A DNA stretch of 64,000 bases from Alicyclobacillus hesperidum (GTDB lineage: Bacteria; Bacillota; Bacilli; Alicyclobacillales; Alicyclobacillaceae). The DNA lies in the NCBI RefSeq assembly GCF_900107035.1, contig NZ_FNOJ01000001.1, forward strand, positions 186,001 to 250,000, written 5' to 3'. The position numbers and the translations under genes were made by a program. Below the pieces are notes generated by a model. That model did not search any database. It saw only the letters and a list, made by a program, of their open reading frames with translations, and was not told where the DNA came from. Shown one piece after another: positions 6,048-16,061 of the stretch (positions within the stretch are counted from its first letter, which is position 1; every line of letters begins with the position of its first letter).

Positions 6048-6469
6048 TCAAACTTTGCGAATCGTGTATCCATCTTTGAGTAAATACCAAAGCTGAGGAA
6101 ATTCGTTGCCAAGCACCCACACCGAGACGCCACGCAACTGATATTCGTCCACCAACGCCAGCTTAATGGCGGCGCTCTGAGCGTCGTCGAACCACACGCG
6201 ATGCTGCACGCCAGCAACCATGTATTCAAAATACGGCGACGCTGATTTTACGTCCCAGATGATTGGTGCTTTCTCCGCGATGGCTAAATTCTGGGCAGCG
6301 TTGTTCGACACACCACTGGCCCGAGTGCGCCCTTTCTCATACGGCAGCGGCCAATCATACCCGTAAAGGGACATACCCATAAGAATCTTTCCCGGCTCGA
6401 TCGCGCTGGTCGCGTAATCCAATACCGCCCTTACCTGATCGATCGGAGCGATGGCCATCGGTGGTCCGC
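6048..6469 (-). CDS. yaaH: C-terminal part of interrupted spore glycosidase (YaaH/SleL type)
   Basis: This 135-residue segment after the shared GGPPM point reads AIAPIDQVRAVLDYA, then ILMGMSLYGYDWPLP, and ends in a GH18 C-terminus (YQLRGVSVWVLGNEFPQ). It has no start or ribosome site of its own at the break. The codons for GPPM lie inside the 15-bp repeat at 6455-6469. The matching N-terminal part ends in the same repeat 8.6 kb away. Joined, the frame is continuous and the protein has 429 residues, close to the ~427 of B. subtilis YaaH. It would be translated only after excision of the intervening element. Confidence 0.9.
6455..6469. repeat. Element end, left attachment site core (attL)
   Basis: CCATCGGTGGTCCGC is repeated exactly at 15099-15113. 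The flanking bases differ on both sides, so the shared core is 15 bp. It encodes the GPPM codons of the GH18 domain on the minus strand. Confidence 0.88.
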
Positions 6470-6523
6470 TTGCCATCATCCAACTACACATCCCCTGATC
6501 TCTGTCGTATCGACGAGTCTCTG

Positions 6524-8050
6524 TTATAACGCGGAAAACGTATAGCAAATCGAGACGGAGATGTCTGGGTCAAACGACGTCAGTCTCACCTCGTGTACCA
6601 GTGCGGCTAGAATGCGCCTCTGGACAGAGGTATATTCCGAGTCGTACGGTCGAACAGTCAGCCACGACAAAATGAAGTCGTCGAGCGATGCCTCCTGCTC
6701 ATGGTTGTCGCTGCCTTCTGATACAGCCTCTAATGAGGCCAACCGCTCGCGCAGGGGGCCGTTAAGATGATCAAACTGTTCAAGGGAGAGGGCACCACTT
6801 GCATACGCAGCGAATAACTTCTCAAATTGCGCGACAATGCGTGATCGTTCAACCTCTGTCACTTGTCGATAAAGCGGTCTATCCGCGATCAGCCGATCCT
6901 TTAAAGGCAAATACGTCAACACATCTTCCCTGACCCGCTGGATAACGGCCTGTTCCAGATCATCCGCGCGCACATACGGAGCATTGCAGGCCGACCGCCC
7001 ATACTCCGCCTGGCGAGCACAGCGATAGTAAAGCGTATGGCGCCCATTCTCTTTTGTCACGAGCCGTCCACCGCAGACACAACGCGCCAAACCCACGAGC
7101 AGGTGCACACTGCCGACGCGCCCGCGGTGCGAACGACGCTCCTCCAAGCAATGTGCGACCGCCGCAAACGTCTCGCGATCGATAATAGCTGGATGTGCTT
7201 CGAACACGTGGACGATCTCGGCTTCATCCCGCACCCAGTCGCTTCGGCGTTCGACAATGCCAAACTGGCCGCGTCGAAAGCGCATACGCTTCGTTCGGCG
7301 GCCATACACGATCTCGCCGCAATATACCGGATTCTGCAAGATACGGGCAATCCGGCGCTGACTCCACAGCTTTCCATTTGGCGTCGCGATGCCTTGCCGA
7401 TTGAGTCGTTCCGCGATTGCTCGGCAGCCTAAGCCAGCTCGATACATCGCGAAGATCTGACGGATAATAGGCGCTTCTTCACGGTCGACTTCAAGCCTTT
7501 GCGTCTCGCGGTTCAGGCGATAGCCGTCAGGTGGCCGACCGTTCCATCTGCCACTGCGAGCCTTTTGCATCGCGCCGAGACGCACGCGAACGGATGTCTT
7601 TTCCGATTCTGCCTGAGCGAGAGCACTGTGAATGGTAAACACAAACTCAGCGCGATCGCGATCGCTGTCGAAATTTTCCTCAATGGATAGAACCCGCACC
7701 CCACAGGCAAGTAATAAACGCAACATGGTTAAGGCGTCCACAGTATCGCGTGCAAAGCGAGAGATACCCTTACACAGTAAGACATCAAAGCGGCCGCGCT
7801 TGGCATCGTCCAGCAGCCGCAACACCGCTGGGCGCTTTACCATACTCAGTCCCGTAATGCCTTCGTCGACATACACAAGCTCGTCTGGGGCCAACCATAT
7901 CTCGTCTGCATCAGTCGCCCGCCGACGCGCATATTCACGTGCATATGCGATCTGATGTTCGAGCGAATCGCCGTGTACCTGCGATTCGTCGGAAACGCGG
8001 GCGTAGATGGCGCAGACGCGAGTCGTACGATGGTCGGATCTTAGTATCAT
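6524..8050 (-). CDS. Large serine recombinase of the intervening element
   Basis: The 508-residue protein has a resolvase domain (1-155) with the nucleophile in YARVS (Ser20) and the SRFARD arginine motif (98-103). A recombinase domain follows (about 170-260, DGYRLN to NPVYCGEIVYGR). A zinc ribbon has Cys324, 326, 344 and 355, and a helical C-terminal region completes it. Length and order resemble SpoIVCA, the skin recombinase. I chose ATG 8050 because AGGGAG lies 8 nt upstream. It ends 54 bp from attL, the position expected for the enzyme that excises the element. In known cases such genes are expressed in the mother cell; no clear sporulation promoter is proven here. Confidence 0.93.
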   Translation of the reverse strand: MILRSDHRTTRVCAIYARVSDESQVHGDSLEHQIAYAREYARRRATDADEIWLAPDELVYVDEGITGLSMVKRPAVLRLLDDAKRGRFDVLLCKGISRFARDTVDALTMLRLLLACGVRVLSIEENFDSDRDRAEFVFTIHSALAQAESEKTSVRVRLGAMQKARSGRWNGRPPDGYRLNRETQRLEVDREEAPIIRQIFAMYRAGLGCRAIAERLNRQGIATPNGKLWSQRRIARILQNPVYCGEIVYGRRTKRMRFRRGQFGIVERRSDWVRDEAEIVHVFEAHPAIIDRETFAAVAHCLEERRSHRGRVGSVHLLVGLARCVCGGRLVTKENGRHTLYYRCARQAEYGRSACNAPYVRADDLEQAVIQRVREDVLTYLPLKDRLIADRPLYRQVTEVERSRIVAQFEKLFAAYASGALSLEQFDHLNGPLRERLASLEAVSEGSDNHEQEASLDDFILSWLTVRPYDSEYTSVQRRILAALVHEVRLTSFDPDISVSICYTFSAL

Positions 8051-8356
8051 GGATGGTTCTCCCTGTTCGACATCCCTGAACTTCGTACTGACCGCATCAA
8101 CTCCACGAGTCGATCCGCGATCACCGCGGGATCGACCGCGCCAAACTGGACGCTCGATATTTTGACGAGTTTTCGCTTTCGCAATCGGCATCCCCCCGCC
8201 TAACCGTATGCAATAACCGCCCGTCCGTTTGCCGCCTGCCAACGACTATCGCAAAAAGTTTCGAAACCTGAGTGCATTTAAGTTTGTTTCAAGGATGATT
8301 GGGTAGAATGAGGAAGTGTACAAGATTATTTACGATGTGATGGGCAGGTGCGAAGG
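8051..8356. other. Gene-poor stretch upstream of the recombinase
   Basis: This 306-bp stretch separates the recombinase from a small divergent peptide gene. On the minus strand CATACGGT at about 8204-8211 resembles part of a sigma-E/sigma-K -10 box, without a convincing -35. On the plus strand TAGAAT near 8304 may be a -10 box for the small peptide. An open frame extends the recombinase upstream to 8242, but no ribosome site supports it. Confidence 0.3.
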
Positions 8357-8473
8357 ATGTTCGGAACAATTGCGGCCATCGTCCTCATCACGGCCGGCAT
8401 GATTACATTCAATCGTTATGTGAAGAAACAAACCGAGCGACTGGAAGAAAAAATTCAGTCGATGAAGGCTTGA
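8357..8473 (+). CDS. Small single-pass membrane peptide (38 aa)
   Basis: The sequence begins MFGTIAAIVLITAGMITF, one hydrophobic helix, followed by a charged amphipathic tail (YVKKQTERLEEKIQSMK). AGGTG lies 6 nt before the ATG and a strong terminator follows 32 bp after the stop, so it is a complete transcription unit. It lies in the element beside the recombinase. I do not recognise the family, and its membrane helix makes it an unlikely recombination directionality factor. Confidence 0.6.
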   Translation: MFGTIAAIVLITAGMITFNRYVKKQTERLEEKIQSMKA

Positions 8474-8561: not shown

Positions 8562-10049
8562 TTAGTCCAAATCGAAATCGACGTCTTGCAACGGGATAAG
8601 CTTTGTCCGTTTGATCCATTTGTAGCCGAACCACAAGGCCAAAAATAACGGAATTCCGATGTATGTCGCGATGACCCCGGTCCAATCGACTTTGCCACCC
8701 GTAAAGGCGCTGATATCTTGCCCAACGATGACAATGGCGCACAACACGGTCGCCAGCAATGGGCCAAACGGATACCATTTCGCCCGGTACGCAAGCTTGC
8801 TTAAGTCACGTCCCTGTGCGAGATAAGCCTTGCGGAACCGGTAGTGGCTAACGGCCACTCCGAGCCAGGCAAGAAAACCAGTCAAACTGGCCGCGTTCAT
8901 CATCCACGTATAAACGGCACCGTTGCCGACAAATGACGACAGAAATGCAACGAACCCAATGACCGTGTTGACATAGAGCGCGTTCATCGGCACGCCGCGT
9001 CGGTTGACCCTCGCAAACACCCGTGGGGCTTTCCCCTCACAGGCAAGTGCCCAAAGCATGCGACTCGACGCGTACAGCGAGGAATTCCCCGCCGACAACA
9101 CAGCCGTCAAAATCACGGCATTCATGACAGCTGCGGCAAGTGCAAACCCAGCTCGCCGGAAGACGAGTGTAAACGGACTGATCGCGACGTTGTTGACGCT
9201 CGCGTTCAACAAGTTCGGATCCGTATACGGAATAAGCATGCCAATGAGGAAGATGGCTAAGACATAAAACAATAAAATGCGCCAGAATACTTGACGAATG
9301 GCTCGCGGCACGGCCCGCTCCGGATGCTCGCTTTCCCCTGCCGCCAAACCAACCAGTTCCGTCCCCTGAAAGGCAAATCCAGCGACCATCACAGTGCCAA
9401 GGAACCCAAGCCAACCACCATGAAAGGGCGTCCCGCCCGTCATGAACGTGTGCCAACCAACCGGATGCCCGCCCAAGATGCCAAAAATCATAGCTAGACC
9501 AATGATAATAAAGACGATAATCGTCAAAACCTTAATTCCTGCAAACCAGTACTCGCCTTCCCCGTACCCTCGCACAGAGACGACATTTAGCAGAAACAAC
9601 ACGGCGAGGAACACGGCACTCCAAACCACGGAAGGCGTGTGCGGAAACCAATACTTCATTACGATGGCGCCCGCCGACAACTCGGCCGGCAACGTAACGG
9701 TCCATGTGTACCAATAATTCCAACCCAGTGCAAAACCAAACGCCGGATCGACAAACCGTGTAGCATACTGTTCAAACGATCCTGCAATTGGCATGAATGT
9801 GGCCATCTCACCGAGACTGGTCATGATGAAGTAGACCATGATGCCAACAATGATATATGCCAACAGCGCGCCGCCGGGCCCCGCCGTGGAAATGGACGAT
9901 CCGCTCGCCACAAAAAGTCCTGTGCCGATGGCCCCACCCAGGGCAATCATCGATAGATGGCGGGAGCGAAGTTCACGGTGCAACCCGATCTCTGCATGTT
10001 TGCGCACAGGTTGCTCTGAAAAGGGTGTACTCGCTGGCCTCTGACTCAC
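8562..10049 (-). CDS. Amino-acid permease, APC superfamily
   Basis: After a soluble N-terminus ending in the family motif ELRSRHLSMIALGGAIGTGLF come about 12 hydrophobic segments, typical of LysP/GabP-type amino-acid permeases of the cytoplasmic membrane. GTG 10049 is favoured as start because AGGAG lies 8 nt upstream; this gives 495 residues, normal for the family. The substrate cannot be read. It is cargo of the intervening element and has no obvious link to sporulation. It is convergent with the small peptide gene and shares its terminator. Confidence 0.9.
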   Translation of the reverse strand: MSQRPASTPFSEQPVRKHAEIGLHRELRSRHLSMIALGGAIGTGLFVASGSSISTAGPGGALLAYIIVGIMVYFIMTSLGEMATFMPIAGSFEQYATRFVDPAFGFALGWNYWYTWTVTLPAELSAGAIVMKYWFPHTPSVVWSAVFLAVLFLLNVVSVRGYGEGEYWFAGIKVLTIIVFIIIGLAMIFGILGGHPVGWHTFMTGGTPFHGGWLGFLGTVMVAGFAFQGTELVGLAAGESEHPERAVPRAIRQVFWRILLFYVLAIFLIGMLIPYTDPNLLNASVNNVAISPFTLVFRRAGFALAAAVMNAVILTAVLSAGNSSLYASSRMLWALACEGKAPRVFARVNRRGVPMNALYVNTVIGFVAFLSSFVGNGAVYTWMMNAASLTGFLAWLGVAVSHYRFRKAYLAQGRDLSKLAYRAKWYPFGPLLATVLCAIVIVGQDISAFTGGKVDWTGVIATYIGIPLFLALWFGYKWIKRTKLIPLQDVDFDLD

Positions 10050-10219
10050 CTTGTTAGCTCCTTTCTTGTTCCGAAAATCATCGTATAGCGTGTACATATA
10101 AATCGCAATGAGAAATGCTTTCCTTCGCTAAAGAAATAGTGAAATAAAGTGCAAAGACATAATCAAATGCAGCTTGGAGACCCTCAGAATAAGTGATGTT
10201 TGTAAAGGAGAGGAATTTC

Positions 10220-10765
10220 ATGAAAAGGGTTGCTGGCTATCTATCGACGTCGGCTCTACTATGTACCTTGTGGGCTCCAATCAGTACCAATGCAGCTGTG
10301 AGCGGATCAAGCCACAAAGGGGATATCGAGTTTCGCGTCGGGTCCTCCACCTCGACGGTCATTGCAGGCGCCCGCGTGATCGTCATCAATCACGACGGGA
10401 ACATCGTCGCCACAGGCCTGACCAATGCCCAAGGCACGTGGGACGCGCAGGTACCCCTGTACAAGGCCGATTGGAACAAAAAGTTTGACGCCAAAGGCGT
10501 CGTCAACGCCATCGTCGTTGCGGACGGTTTTAATGAACAAGCCGTGTATATCATTCCCATCACCGAACACACAGTTCAACCCGTCATTCTGCAGCCCATA
10601 CAGGCCAATCGGCGCAACGCGCCTTCGGCGTCCCTCGGCAACTTTAGTACACATGATCTGCAGCGTTACATTGACCGCTATGCGTCTGAACTGAAACTGA
10701 AGCGGCAGGCACCGATTCCTGCCGATCCGGAGCACGCGCCATGGAGTCCTCAGCAACAGCAGTAA
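10220..10765 (+). CDS. Secreted protein with carboxypeptidase-regulatory-like fold, function unknown
   Basis: A signal peptide with an AxA-type end (STNAA) is followed by a beta-rich domain of about 90 residues (GDIEFRVGSSTSTVIAGARV, then GLTNAQGTWDAQVP). This resembles carboxypeptidase-regulatory-like or CNA-B-like repeats. The tail is Pro/Gln-rich. ATG 10220 has AAAGGAG 9 nt upstream. It lies 13 bp upstream of a SpoIID-like gene and is probably co-transcribed with it, which suggests a role at the cell wall or spore envelope; this is inferred. Confidence 0.7.
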   Translation: MKRVAGYLSTSALLCTLWAPISTNAAVSGSSHKGDIEFRVGSSTSTVIAGARVIVINHDGNIVATGLTNAQGTWDAQVPLYKADWNKKFDAKGVVNAIVVADGFNEQAVYIIPITEHTVQPVILQPIQANRRNAPSASLGNFSTHDLQRYIDRYASELKLKRQAPIPADPEHAPWSPQQQQ

Positions 10766-10778
10766 GGAGTGGCTGCTC

Positions 10779-11390
10779 ATGCGAACCTTTCGTTCTTTGC
10801 AATTGACCCTTGCGTCTGCGGCGCTTGCGTTCGCGTTCGAGCAAGCACCGGTGATAAGTGCCCAGACGATTTATAATACGCCGTATCCTTCGGTCATACG
10901 GGTTGCCATCCGCGCCAATAACAACCCGACCAGCCCTATTCTGTACGTCCAGACTGTCGGCTTTGAAGAGTATTGCGAAGACGTGTTGCCAAACGAGTGG
11001 ATGCCCAGTTGGAACGCCGAGGCTCTTAAGGCCGGGGCAATTGCGGTGAAGATGTTCGCCTGGTACTGGACGCTCCACCCCACAACCGAAGGCGGATTTA
11101 CATACGACGTGGACAACACCACAAACTTTCAGACATTCAAATACCTAAGCGGTCAAGTCGCCACAGATTTGGCGGTTCAAGAGACGTGGAACATGGTATT
11201 TGTGCCAAGCGACGGATCTATTAAGCCGCTCGACTTCCGGGCTGGCACACCAGATGGTAGCAACACGGGATACGTGGGAACCTTCATTATGTCACAATGG
11301 GGATCGCAATACTGGGCGCAAACCGCAAAGCTTCCTTTCACGACGATCCTCAGCCTCTTTTACCCCGGGTATCAACTGCGATTTGTTTAA
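10779..11390 (+). CDS. SpoIID/LytB-domain secreted protein
   Basis: The 203-residue protein has an N-terminal signal segment. Its domain YVQTVGFEEYCEDVLPNEW with WNAEALKAGAIAVKMFAW matches the SpoIID family, peptidoglycan lytic transglycosylases that support engulfment or enhance amidases. A glutamate stands at the position of the catalytic Glu (NEWMP for the usual AEMP). It is shorter than SpoIID (~340), so it is not SpoIID itself. It ends in a strong terminator and forms a unit with the preceding gene. A sporulation-type wall enzyme inside an element that interrupts a spore gene is notable. Confidence 0.8.
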   Translation: MRTFRSLQLTLASAALAFAFEQAPVISAQTIYNTPYPSVIRVAIRANNNPTSPILYVQTVGFEEYCEDVLPNEWMPSWNAEALKAGAIAVKMFAWYWTLHPTTEGGFTYDVDNTTNFQTFKYLSGQVATDLAVQETWNMVFVPSDGSIKPLDFRAGTPDGSNTGYVGTFIMSQWGSQYWAQTAKLPFTTILSLFYPGYQLRFV

Positions 11391-11436: not shown

Positions 11437-11524
11437 GTGAAACATTCTCCTGCTTCCACTGCGATCTTTCCCCCTTTTGCTGCGTCTAATCAGATGTAAA
11501 GAGATTGCGAGGTGCCATGGTCTC

Positions 11525-12043
11525 ATGGAACGTTACCCATCGTCTGTCCGCGAAGAAATCTCGAGATTATACGAGCGCTATGCGGACGATGTCTATCGCT
11601 ATGGGAGATTGACTCTGGGCACCGAAGACGATGCGTACGACGTGGTGCAAGAGACATTTTTACGGGCCATTCGCGGTTGGCCAAGATTTCGCAGGGAAGC
11701 AAGTGAGCAAACATGGCTGCTACAAATCGCGCGCAATGTCATGTATGACAAGTTTCGTAGACGTCGCTCCGAGCAAAGGGTGATGCAGTTTGCACAAATC
11801 CATCAAACCAAGTGGCAAGATGCCATCGATCACTCCCTTGTGATCGAAAGCGCCATCAGGAAGCTGCGCGAATCCTACCGTCAAGTGGTCATTCTACGTC
11901 ATGTTGAAGGCCTTAATGTAGAAGAAACCGCACAAGTACTGGGGTGGAGCGAGAACAAGGTGCGTTCGACTACGCATCGTGCACTTGCCAAACTGCGAGA
12001 CCTGCTCACTGACGATGAGGAAACGGGGGTTTGGGACAGATGA
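11525..12043 (+). CDS. ECF-type RNA polymerase sigma factor
   Basis: The 172-residue protein has sigma region 2 (YERYADDVYRYGRLTLGTED, DVVQETFLRAI) and region 4 (YRQVVILRHVEGLNVEETAQ, then an HTH ending STTHRALAKLR), with no region 3, as in extracytoplasmic-function sigma factors. ATG 11525 has GAGGTG about 10 nt upstream; an earlier ATG at 11477 lacks support. Its stop overlaps the start of the next gene by 4 bp, a typical sigma/anti-sigma coupling. Targets are unknown, but other element genes are candidates. Confidence 0.9.
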   Translation: MERYPSSVREEISRLYERYADDVYRYGRLTLGTEDDAYDVVQETFLRAIRGWPRFRREASEQTWLLQIARNVMYDKFRRRRSEQRVMQFAQIHQTKWQDAIDHSLVIESAIRKLRESYRQVVILRHVEGLNVEETAQVLGWSENKVRSTTHRALAKLRDLLTDDEETGVWDR

Positions 12044-13149
12044 GCCATGGGCACAGCATCGAGAAGGAGCTCGAAAAAATGAAATCGGTTCGCATGTCTA
12101 AAGAACAGCGGGATGGCATCTGGGAGAATATCGTGGCCAATTTGGACAGCGTGCCAAAGCGCAACATGATACGCGCCCGCAGCGTATGGGCGTCAGTGGG
12201 AGGGGGTGCCGCTGCAATCGCGCTCGTCGTAGGTGGCTATGCTGCCGTGCACAAAGGATCACCGGGCCCACGTACGGCGGTTGAGGCGCCAGCCCAAGCC
12301 GGCTCGGCGAATGGTTCGCCCGCCATTCTGTATCAATTAAACAACTATGCAGCACAAGCCAATCGAGCGACAGTTCCCTTTTACGAAGACGGTCACATTG
12401 TCCAGGAACGAATGCCGATACAGAAAAGTTTGGAAATCGCCAAGGCACATAGTCCATGGCGAACCGATCCGGTCCTGTCTGCCCAAGCGTACACAGCCAA
12501 TCTCTTACCTGCAGGTTTTGCTCATGCAGCTTGGAGCACCACGAGCCATCACATGTTGACCACGACCAAAAACGGCGTCATCGCGACATACCAATTGATG
12601 AGTAGGAACGATGCTGGCTCCCCGCCAACAGCGAACGTGCAACTTTCCATCACAGGTGAAGGACATCCATTGTACTATCACATTCATCTTTTTGAATTAC
12701 AACATCGGTACGTATGGGATATCGCGCGAATTGTCCGTACGCCGGCCCCACCGATTCCGCTACCCTCAGGCATCAAATCGCTGTCAGTGAGCACAGGCCT
12801 CGCGGCAATCGGGTACGTACCGAACCAGTTCGACAAAGTTGCACGTCAGATAACAGTCTGGCTGGAGACGGCGACACGCACGTCGTATCAGCTACCGCCT
12901 GCGCCGGCGAACCTGATCTTCAACGTGAATGTCGCACCGGATACCCTGTATCTAACCGCGTCCGACGGCACACAGATTTCTATCACACCGGCCTATACGA
13001 TCGTAAGACGAGACGAAAAGTATGAAGTGCTGACACAGCCCGACACCGTCGAATATAAGACTTCGACAGAAGTGGTGTATCTACATTGTCCAGCTTTATA
13101 CAAGTGGCTTGACGATCACGCCTGGAAAGCATCGTTTCACCTGTCGTGA
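12040..13149 (+). CDS. Putative anti-sigma/membrane partner of the ECF sigma factor
   Basis: A charged N-terminus (about 1-48), one hydrophobic segment (about 50-68, VWASVGGGAAAIALVVGGYA) and a ~300-residue extracytoplasmic domain give the topology of a single-pass anti-sigma factor. No zinc-binding HxxxCxxC motif is present, so it is not a ZAS-type anti-sigma. The outer domain is not recognised. The 4-bp ATGA overlap with the sigma gene is the main support for the role. Confidence 0.6.
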   Translation: MSHGHSIEKELEKMKSVRMSKEQRDGIWENIVANLDSVPKRNMIRARSVWASVGGGAAAIALVVGGYAAVHKGSPGPRTAVEAPAQAGSANGSPAILYQLNNYAAQANRATVPFYEDGHIVQERMPIQKSLEIAKAHSPWRTDPVLSAQAYTANLLPAGFAHAAWSTTSHHMLTTTKNGVIATYQLMSRNDAGSPPTANVQLSITGEGHPLYYHIHLFELQHRYVWDIARIVRTPAPPIPLPSGIKSLSVSTGLAAIGYVPNQFDKVARQITVWLETATRTSYQLPPAPANLIFNVNVAPDTLYLTASDGTQISITPAYTIVRRDEKYEVLTQPDTVEYKTSTEVVYLHCPALYKWLDDHAWKASFHLS

Positions 13150-13349: not shown

Positions 13350-14654
13350 TTAATGCACGGCTAGCAGCCAAACATACAAACCAGAGAGTGTGATAAACAG
13401 CGTTGGAAGCGTGAGCACAATACCTGTTTTGAAGTATTGACCCCATCCGATGCGCACCCCTTTTTGCGCCAGGACGTGTAACCAAAGTAATGTGGCAAGT
13501 GAGCCAATGGGTGTGATTTTGGGTCCTAAATCACACCCAATAACATTGGCGTAGACCATCGCTTCACGCATAAGACCCGTTACGGCGGCGGAGTGAATCG
13601 CGAGTGCACCCACCATCACCGTCGGTAAATTGTTCATAATGCTCGACAGGATGGCTGCAACAAAACCTGTGAACAGCGTCCCGGCGTAAAGCCCACCGTG
13701 CGTCGACCACTGCATGAGACGGCCGAGCAATGTGGTCAGTCCCGCGTTGCGAAGTCCGTATACGACGACATACATACCTATCGAAAACACAACGATGGAC
13801 CACGGAGCACTGCGAATCGTCGACCACGGTGCGACGGTCTTGGTTCTCGCTCCGGCGATGAGAAACACCAGCGCAACCGCCAAGGTCACGAAGCTGACAG
13901 GGATATGAAACAACTCAGTCAGAACGTAACCGACAAGCAAGACAGCAAGGATAATCCAGGAAGCCAAAAACATACCTTTGTGCCGAATAGCACTTGCCGC
14001 CTCTGGCAAATCACTTGGGCGATAGGCATTGGGAATGTCCTTACGAAAGAAGAGATATAACATCAAGAAGCTAGCGACAAACGCAAACAAGTCAGGGACA
14101 ATCATGTGTACGGCATAGCTGATAAAACCGACGCCAAAGTAATCGGCGGATACGATGTTGACAAGGTTACTCACGATGAACGGCAGTGACGTGGTATCGG
14201 CAATAAATCCACTTGCCAGTATAAACGGTAGCATCTTCCTCATGTCAAATTTCAACAGCTTCACTTTTTCTAGAACGATGGGTGTCAAAATGAGCGCAGC
14301 TCCATCATTGGCGAAGAAGGCGGAGACGATGGCCCCGAGTGTAATGACATACAAAAAAACTTTTCTCCCGTCCCCTTTGGCGACATGTGCCATTTTGAGC
14401 GCGGCCCACTCGAAAAAGCCAATTTTGTCCAAGATTATCGAGTTCATGATGATGCCTACGAATGCCAAGGTCGCATCCCAAACAATTTTCGTCACCGACC
14501 ATACATCTGCAACATGCACAACATGAAGCAGCAGTGCGAGCACCGCACCGCCTATGGCACTCCATCCGATGGACAACCCCTTGGGTTGCCATATGACAAA
14601 CACCAATGTCAGAACAAACACCGCCAGTGCGAACCATGCCGCGGGCGCTATCAT
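13350..14654 (-). CDS. arsB: ArsB-type arsenite efflux permease
   Basis: The 434-residue protein has 11-12 hydrophobic segments. The stretches FVIWQPKGLSIGWSAIGGAV, FFANDGAALILTPIVLEKV and ASGFIADTTSLPFIVSNLVN are characteristic of the Staphylococcus ArsB family, which expels arsenite and antimonite across the membrane. Its start codon overlaps the stop of the full-length arsR frame by 4 bp (ATGA), so they form one operon. It is cargo of the intervening element; the B. subtilis skin element also carries an ars operon. Confidence 0.93.
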   Translation of the reverse strand: MIAPAAWFALAVFVLTLVFVIWQPKGLSIGWSAIGGAVLALLLHVVHVADVWSVTKIVWDATLAFVGIIMNSIILDKIGFFEWAALKMAHVAKGDGRKVFLYVITLGAIVSAFFANDGAALILTPIVLEKVKLLKFDMRKMLPFILASGFIADTTSLPFIVSNLVNIVSADYFGVGFISYAVHMIVPDLFAFVASFLMLYLFFRKDIPNAYRPSDLPEAASAIRHKGMFLASWIILAVLLVGYVLTELFHIPVSFVTLAVALVFLIAGARTKTVAPWSTIRSAPWSIVVFSIGMYVVVYGLRNAGLTTLLGRLMQWSTHGGLYAGTLFTGFVAAILSSIMNNLPTVMVGALAIHSAAVTGLMREAMVYANVIGCDLGPKITPIGSLATLLWLHVLAQKGVRIGWGQYFKTGIVLTLPTLFITLSGLYVWLLAVH

Positions 14655-14995
14655 GTGGCCACACCTTCAAATTCGACATGCAAATCTTCTTTATGTACCA
14701 ATTCCTTCTCGTCCCCCAGTTTCGTCAACTCGTTCAGCGCAATCCCCACTTCCTGAAGGCAAATCTTGTTTCATGCATAGAAAACCCACATACCTTTTCG
14801 AGTTTCCTTCACCAGCCCCACGGCCTTCAGTCGACTCATATATTTTGACACGGCCGGCTGTGAGATGCCAAACAGTGGCACCCATTCACATACATACCAG
14901 TCGCGGATGTTCAACATTGCAATGATTCGACGACGCGTGGGATCCGCCAAGCCTTCAACGTGCTCGCGGGTTTTTCCAAATCCAATCCCGATCAC
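14651..14995 (-). pseudogene. arsR: arsR-type repressor interrupted by an in-frame TGA
   Basis: The frame encodes an ArsR/SmtB winged helix (LADPTRRRIIAMLN, then FGISQPAVSKYMSRLKAVGL) and stops at TGA 14771-14773 after WVFYA. The same frame continues with NKICLQEVGIALNELTKL and ends at 14651, overlapping the arsB start by 4 bp. A normal ArsR of ~114 residues is thus cut to ~74, losing the C-terminal dimerisation helix. The usual metal-binding CVC is YVC here, so one sensing Cys is also gone. The start is uncertain: GTG 14995 or ATT 14986 (GAGGTG 7 nt upstream). The truncated protein may be inactive. Confidence 0.75.
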
Positions 14996-15075: not shown

Positions 15076-15981
15076 CTAAACGTGTAGCATTTTGCTGACC
15101 ATCGGTGGTCCGCCGACCCATCCCCACTCATACGTCATCAGCATGACAAAGTCGACTTCCTGCCCCAACGTCCGGTAATCGAACGCACCCATCCAAGGCT
15201 GATTCGGGTTGTCGGCCGTCTTTGGTCCCATCGCAATGGATATGCTGAGGTTCCGACTGCGCAAAGATTGGACCAACTCGCGAATAAACTCATTGTACAA
15301 CGGCCGATCCGATGGACCCATATGTTCGAAGTCGACGTTCACCCCCGCATATCCTTTGCTTGTGCAGATCGATAAAGCCTGGTCGATCACGGTCTGACGT
15401 AAGGAGCGGTTGGCCAAGATGGAATGTGCGAGTTGCGTGTTGAAGTTGTTGCCATCGAAGTTCGTGATCGTGACAAGTGGGCGAATGTTGTATCGTTTTG
15501 CTGAGGCGAGCACGATGTCGTCCTTTGGAGCTTCAAAATGGCCATCAGCGCGAACCTGATAAGAGAATGTACAAACATATGTTAGGTCTGAGACGTCGCC
15601 TAAGATTTCCTCGTCGCTCTGCTCGCCCGTCGGCACGATGTACCCGTTTACTTCAATCGTTTTTCGCGTCGTGCGCCGCACAGGCAGATAGATTTGCGAC
15701 CCTACCGAAAGTGCGGACCCACTCACATAGCCGGTCCAACTCGCGAAGACCGCAGGTGAAATACCGAAACGCTGCGCAATAGACTCCGGTGTATCACCTG
15801 ATTGAATGGTGTAGGCTTGAACAGCGAGCGGATCTCCCTTCGGAATCAACAGAGCTAGACCCGGTACGATTTCGGTGCGCGAAGGCAGTTCGTTGTAACG
15901 CAAGATGTCGCGCACCGATACACCATAGGTGGCGGCAATCTGCCTGAGCGTCTCTCCAGAACGGACGCGATGAATTCGCAT
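15076..15981 (-). CDS. yaaH: N-terminal part of interrupted spore glycosidase (YaaH/SleL type)
   Basis: Two LysM peptidoglycan-binding domains (about 4-47 and 55-100) precede a GH18 domain, with the catalytic motif GVNVDFE ending in Glu219 and the strand VDFVMLMTYEWGW. Native sequence ends at GGPPM (residue 294) in the 15-bp repeat. Seven foreign residues and a stop come from the element. ATG 15981 has GGGAGG 7 nt upstream. YaaH/SleL proteins are spore-coat-associated N-acetylglucosaminidases acting on cortex fragments. The intact product would be 429 residues after joining to the 6048-6469 segment. Unjoined, the barrel lacks its C-terminal third and should be inactive. Confidence 0.92.
   Translation of the reverse strand: MRIHRVRSGETLRQIAATYGVSVRDILRYNELPSRTEIVPGLALLIPKGDPLAVQAYTIQSGDTPESIAQRFGISPAVFASWTGYVSGSALSVGSQIYLPVRRTTRKTIEVNGYIVPTGEQSDEEILGDVSDLTYVCTFSYQVRADGHFEAPKDDIVLASAKRYNIRPLVTITNFDGNNFNTQLAHSILANRSLRQTVIDQALSICTSKGYAGVNVDFEHMGPSDRPLYNEFIRELVQSLRSRNLSISIAMGPKTADNPNQPWMGAFDYRTLGQEVDFVMLMTYEWGWVGGPPMVSKMLHV
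15099..15113. repeat. Element end, right attachment site core (attR)
   Basis: This is the second exact copy of CCATCGGTGGTCCGC. On the element side, past the core, lie GTGTAG (15083-15088) and a CCGCA/TGCGG inverted repeat (15061-15074). The GTGTAG is the reverse complement of CTACAC at 6484-6489 on the other element end. Confidence 0.88.
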
Positions 15982-16061
15982 GGTATAGCCTCCCTGATGC
16001 AAAACAGTCACTCCAGCCTATGCTGGGGGCTGGCGTCATGCGCATCCGGGTTGGCTGATCT

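Follow-up and report, generated by a model that had tools for sequence, protein, structure and literature searches.

Serine-recombinase elements that split sporulation genes are a known kind of insertion, represented by gin, yin, SPbeta, and a phage in sigK of Alicyclobacillus, and the spore genes reported to be split in this way are sigK, spsM, spoVFB, gerE, and yabG (PMC5595907, PMC10747680). In Bacillus subtilis, precise excision of skin (from sigK) and SPbeta (from spsM) restores the interrupted gene, the core of skin being five nucleotides long (PMC4191935, PMC13141910). The gin element in gerE of Bacillus cereus is a non-phage element for which excision has been demonstrated; its att site is an inverted repeat with a central dinucleotide and a short core (9 bp), and it employs three recombinases together with GirX, its known directionality factor (PMC5595907). 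Excision of yin, a prophage-like element with inverted repeats at its ends that its authors call unique, restores yabG in Clostridium botulinum (PMC10747680), and the infectious Alicyclobacillus phage MMB025 uses sigK as its integration site, with a TCTC core (PMC13141910). SCC elements with Ccr recombinases are cassettes that differ in cargo and stack up at a single site in the chromosome (PMC5595907).

Here we describe a cassette that splits a sleL/yaaH-type gene in the window, i.e. the whole 64,000-nucleotide stretch analysed of DNA from the acid-loving, spore-forming Alicyclobacillus hesperidum, and its relatives elsewhere in the family. Through sequence comparison we document its attachment sites, their dyad, bounds on the crossover, the reading frame restored by its removal, its recurrence, and selection on the severed gene. 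It resembles gin in being a non-phage, serine-recombinase element that splits a sporulation gene, in the design of its att site, and in its short core, but it occupies another gene and, in contrast to gin, is known from sequence alone. Its common core, GGACC, has five nucleotides like that of skin; skin and SPbeta, however, are prophages or prophage-like with other targets, whereas a Pfam scan of the eight named sleL-element proteins matched no virion or packaging family. It shares with yin the same three recombinase domains and the inverted repeats, although the sleL split recurs across a family, and with MMB025 the genus and the use of a spore gene, although gene and core differ. Tandem arrays among its relatives recall SCC, but its own recombinase scores well short of the 900-bit Ccr cut-offs and the cassette has inserted within a spore gene. 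No element interrupting sleL/yaaH was recognised in the titles and abstracts of a literature search restricted to open-licence PMC papers (a weak negative), and the available part of an arsenic genome paper on A. mali FL18, which lists ars genes, makes no mention of one (PMC8060452). Within the literature searched, sleL as a target, recurrence throughout a family, and stacking in the manner of SCC appear to be new.

The interrupted gene and its cassette

The features of the window are collected in Table 1. The host gene was designated SleL/YaaH-type because the closest solved relatives of its intact homologue in G013 are a cortical-lytic enzyme (4s3j) and the spore germination protein YaaH (4s3k). 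Its GH18 profile match ends at 182 on one side of the break and resumes at 208 on the other, and removal of the insert yields a 441-codon open frame, measured between stop codons, that reads MLMTYEWGWVGGPPMAIAPIDQ across the junction. Precise removal restores the frame of a spore-type gene, its role in sporulation being suggested by the similarity to SleL/YaaH.

Table 1. Coordinates of the split gene, the cassette genes, and the attachment sites in the window.
Feature	Position	Strand	Remarks
Host gene 3' part: C-terminal part of GH18	6048..6469	-	
Left repeat copy, CCATCGGTGGTCCGC (15 bp)	6455..6469	.	C-side junction; common segment GGTCC 6463-6467; predicted crossover GG 6463-6464
Reconstructed attP, one 25-bp half	15083..15107	.	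arm GTGTAG 15082-15087
Reconstructed attP, other 25-bp half	6464..6488	.	arm CTACAC 6484-6489
Large serine recombinase (Resolvase, Recombinase, Zn_ribbon_recom)	6524..8242	-	domain profiles
Small ORF, 51 codons, hydrophobic stretch	8318..8470	+	adjoins recombinase; ORFs like it in 5 of the 14 contiguous loci, the window among them
Amino acid permease (cargo)	8562..10097	-	profile match
Hypothetical protein (cargo)	10193..10765	+	sub-threshold carboxypeptidase-regulatory-like match
SpoIID-domain protein (cargo)	10779..11390	+	profile match
ECF sigma factor (cargo)	11477..12043	+	profile match
Protein without family match, downstream of sigma factor (cargo)	12031..13149	+	putative anti-sigma factor, by position
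ArsB arsenite efflux pump (cargo)	13350..14654	-	profile match
ArsR-family regulator, short form (cargo)	14771..14995	-	profile match
Right repeat copy, CCATCGGTGGTCCGC (15 bp)	15099..15113	.	N-side junction; common segment 15107-15111; GG 15107-15108
Host gene 5' part: two LysM and N-terminal part of GH18 (SleL/YaaH-type)	15099..16011	-	

The 8.6 kb element combines a serine recombinase with cargo that includes ArsB. All three recombinase domains score above their cut-offs (Resolvase, 102.3 bits; Recombinase, 91.8; zinc-ribbon, 45.3), and the true start of the protein probably lies near 8047. Its best NCBIfam scores are 128 bits for CcrB and 121 for CcrC (cut-off 900) and 79 for CcrA (cut-off 700), i.e. 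it reaches none of the three Ccr cut-offs. When three element proteins were compared with PHROGs, the recombinase alone was matched, to integrase and invertase families. It is 96% identical to its counterpart in A. tengchongensis and 78% to that in A. sacchari, and the genome itself is close to both species; among the matches listed, relatives in phage and plasmid records are 27-34% identical, and the G003 recombinase has three relatives in viral contigs (25-30% identical). The ArsR-type frame of the window encodes 74 aa, with a different start, against 91 aa in the G011 cassette, and is perhaps degraded.

Recurrence across the family

Our survey covered 41 family genomes (from Alicyclobacillus and its relatives), 16 of which have the gene interrupted at the same codons (G000, G001, G003, G004, G005, G006, G007, G011, G012, G016, G018, G021, G025, G029, G031, and G061), with both parts on one contig in 14 and on two contigs in G021 and G031. 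Another 22 are not split at this site, including G009 (split elsewhere), G019 (read to the contig end), and G062 (judged by open-frame length), while three were left unassigned: G008 (contig end), G014 (no clear orthologue), and G064 (fragments). Inserts at the 14 contiguous loci range from 5.1 to 41.0 kb, and every one contains at least one recombinase at least 48% identical to that of the window over the matched part. In an all-against-all comparison in which overlapping ORFs in other frames were set aside, the recombinase was the sole gene common to all 14 loci; in 12 of them the gene terminates at the C-side junction, the exceptions being G004 and G025. Tandem cassettes occupy the site in G001 (two inner junctions), G007 (one), and G004 (one), the window having no array. 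Near a contig end of G021 (L128), a core-like GGACC follows the 3' end of a recombinase and is perhaps a further tandem junction.

Cargo varies among the cassettes. ArsB-like ORFs also occur in G005, G011, and one G001 cassette, and G006 carries a heavy-metal P-type ATPase that clusters with ORFs in G001, G004, G007, and G012; another P-type ATPase, of potassium type as read from its neighbours, is present in G007. G025 carries GerA, GerAC, and a spore permease, while the G029 insert (L118), with ThsB-like TIR, caspase-like, RmrA-like, and kinase proteins, is a possible defence island. One recombinase group of eight (support 100/99) unites Alicyclobacillus with two other genera (G029 and G031), and this mixture suggests, from the recombinase tree alone, movement between genera. 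The recombinase group also extends beyond sleL, one member in G022 lying away from an unsplit sleL.

Several related arrangements were observed alongside the 16 split loci. In G041, which belongs to another family, an element of approximately 3.6 kb occupies the same site with its recombinase on the N side (L155, L156). In G009 (L123, L124, L125), sleL breaks at another codon into parts approximately 118 kb apart, with TACGG in both; genes matching phage families, namely a distinct serine integrase, a repressor, and a metalloprotease, adjoin the N-side break, which is probably the mark of a second, independent element in the gene. Orphan sleL 3' parts were found in G033 (L129, L130) and G019 (L132, L133), each of which also has a sleL copy that is uninterrupted at the site; the G033 orphan lies behind a core approximately 21 kb beyond the unsplit gene, with a frame break between the core and the remainder. 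Such orphans may have been left behind by an insertion that arrived with a 3' part of its own. In G054 (L158), G043 (L159), G053 (L160), and G047 (L161), recombinases that share 45-51% identity with the G003 enzyme abut a frame that resembles, as judged by eye, an HtrA-type serine protease and is perhaps another split gene.

Attachment sites and the position of the crossover

Joining the two ends of the element places the inverted 6-bp arms GTGTAG and CTACAC 40 bp apart. The first-pass annotation had both the arm sequences and their spacing right, although the right end that it gave, 15083, omits the first arm base, 15082. It had also placed the dyad centre between core bases 9 and 10 (GG), which is where we find it in the joined junction, and our recount returned the same 15 complementary pairs of 26, the top score among 26 centres tested (next best, 11). 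With the centre fixed, 15 of 26 is reached at 39 of 63940 window positions, and a maximum of at least 15 across 26 neighbouring centres arose in 1.5% of 5000 samples (probability approximately 0.015). By itself, the dyad of the window is suggestive: moderately unlikely by chance and not conclusive. It is also one of the weaker sites, with 15 pairs in a range of 12-19 among 18 rebuilt attP sites.

These 18 sites derive from 11 single loci and from the three arrays (G001, G007, and G004), which give seven sites with 14-19 of 26 positions paired. G021 and G031, with sites on different contigs, and G041, of another family and with its recombinase on the opposite side, were excluded from pairing. 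The four inner junctions of the arrays were chosen by eye, each directly after a recombinase 3' end and with other matches there passed over, from a scan that reported only junctions scoring at least 11 of 28. Cognate halves pair at a mean of 16.5 of 26 positions versus 13.5 for swapped halves, and none of 20000 permutations, which ignore the relatedness of the elements, reaches the observed sum. A set of 14 elements, from which G005, G011, and G006 were omitted as redundant and G025 as poorly pairing and perhaps not cognate, gives 16.9 versus 13.4, again with none of 20000 permutations reaching the observed value; omission of G025 favours pairing in this set, and the 18-element set retains all four. 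Swapped halves still exceed the random pairing level of 6.5 of 26, because a half-site consensus, gTGTaGTa.gaTGgtGGcCAtcGGAc over the 14 elements, is common to the elements. Empty or flank-joined host sites (26 sites) pair at 7-12 of 26 positions. Since pairing fades past 25 bp per side (4, 2, 2, and 3 of 14 elements at positions 26 to 29), attP is an inverted repeat of approximately 50 bp about a central dinucleotide, to which G025 (12 of 26) and G041 (9 of 26 at the fixed centre) fit poorly; the arms of G041 line up, by eye, only after a shift of 1 bp. Conservation of the arms in related elements, proposed as a check by the first-pass annotation, is borne out by the consensus and by the excess of cognate over permuted pairing in all 20000 shuffles, and the cognate pairing among relatives supports its view that the ends are probably genuine recombination sites of a large serine recombinase. 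Its text mentions neither the split spore gene that hosts the site nor the use of this site in several genera.

The predicted crossover near the central GG likewise agrees with what was found. On the gene strand, the window's GGTCC reads GGACC and its central GG reads CC, and comparison of N-side with C-side sites bounds the crossover to GGACC at all but one of the 16 loci. The exception is G021, with a bound of CC, for which the two sites lie on separate contigs and the single-base differences used may be later mutations. The run shared by the two sides varies from 2 to 15 bp over the 16 loci (15 bp in the window, 7 bp in G005); it includes GGAC|C in 15 and only C|C in G021, and identity stops one base to the right of the centre in 9 of 16. 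In G001, G007, and G004, the outer sites compared belong to different cassettes of an array. The 15-bp core previously taken as a unit is therefore local to the window, the part common to 15 of 16 loci being GGACC. A single pattern representing the excised (circle) junction found no match in viral contigs.

The glycine codon at the core is GGA in all 16 occupied genes (N-side sites) versus 5 of 20 unoccupied genes, the core codons having been read in 20 of the 22 (G024 and G062 left out). Fisher's exact test, in which phylogeny is ignored, gives p = 3e-6 for this comparison and 5e-7 for 16/16 versus 2/15. Unoccupied genes with GGA include G033 and G019, the two with an orphan 3' part, and the GGA spelling may mark which sleL alleles are usable.

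Excision, selection, and alternative explanations

We assign a probability of roughly 70% to the following reading: the cassette entered a sleL/yaaH-type gene by means of its own recombinase, its repeats are hybrid att sites, and the gene, by analogy with skin, SPbeta, and gin, is rejoined when needed. The recombinase would recognise a pair of inverted half-sites, each approximately 25 bp long, around the central GG (window forward strand; CC on the gene strand) and cut there, so that attP on a circle would integrate into attB in the gene to give two hybrid sites, seen as the repeats; the reverse reaction, presumably requiring a directionality factor, would excise the cassette precisely, restoring the frame. 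As with skin, SPbeta, and gin, excision may take place in the mother cell during sporulation, where the mother cell dies and the spore would retain the cassette. Mother-cell excision is a natural model because YaaH is equated with SleL in a report (PMC6282716) that cites a paper titled for its SigE-dependent transcription during sporulation.

Judged from substitution patterns, the severed 3' part is under purifying selection. Across six pairs of split genomes its dN/dS is 0.021, 0.038, 0.027, 0.049, 0.065, and 0.138, the first three pairs sharing the genomes G000, G005, and G011, compared with 0.039-0.059 for the intact gene in five of seven pairs (the remaining two being saturated). Rough binomial tests against neutrality, with an assumed synonymous-site fraction, give p values of at most 6e-8 for five pairs, and the aligned 3' parts are free of stop codons in all 16 split genomes; the orphan 3' part of G033, with its frame break, provides a loose control. 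G000, G005, and G011 carry homologous cargo, so the split has probably lasted while synonymous divergence rose to approximately 1. Because selection acts on the 3' part in cassette-bearing species, the gene is most likely rejoined, although intact alleles passing from strain to strain could likewise maintain the 3' part. Selection shows that the gene is used, without bearing on whether excision is specific to sporulation or on its timing.

Searches for regulation were based on sigma-E and sigma-K motifs in 50 upstream regions (20 recombinase, 30 sleL). No sigma-E-like promoter was found at p 0.05 in any of them. Sigma-K-like sites at an uncorrected p<=0.05 occur in 6 of 30 sleL regions (G010, G017, G020, G023, G029, and G034) and 1 of 20 recombinase regions (G025), and none was found with these motifs upstream of the window's genes. 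At the recombinases the scan gave no convincing promoter of either type. A search for a directionality factor revealed no small gene common to all cassettes of the 14 contiguous loci. Such results also fit an ordinary mobile element whose low, unregulated excision yields enough intact sleL in the absence of developmental control, and both the tandem arrays and the recombinase group mixing three genera suggest mobility. We regard this as the most serious competitor, though a distinctly less probable one, as rare excision would provide intact SleL in few spores, which fits poorly with dN/dS values near those of intact genes.

That sleL has been inactivated, the insertion having landed at a neutral or redundant site and left the 3' part as a remnant, gains some plausibility from other LysM/GH18 genes elsewhere in several interrupted genomes. 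The absence of stop codons, the dN/dS range of 0.02-0.14, and the occupation of the same site in several genera make it very unlikely. It is more improbable still that the two parts function as separate polypeptides: both frames are open and many C-side sites have an in-frame ATG in the core, but this ATG is missing in G018 and G029 and the break falls within a single GH18 domain. A chance dyad picked by eye, for which the window's own probability is no lower than 0.015 over 26 centres, is scarcely credible against the consensus and the cognate pairing shared across elements.

Returning to a rejoined sleL, we would tentatively extend this reading, at less than even odds, to sleL as a family-wide docking site for stackable cassettes: whole stacks would be deleted from the mother cell while the spore line retained them, GGA would decide which alleles can be occupied, and the cargo would comprise genes for metal resistance, germination receptors, defence-like functions, and others. 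If the preferred reading is true, sleL would join the short list of spore genes split by such elements, and with 16 of 41 genomes affected it would be no single curiosity. The 18 rebuilt attP sites and their recombinases form a natural series for studying site recognition by serine recombinases, and the recurrence permits asking why mobile elements settle in genes needed only by a dying cell.
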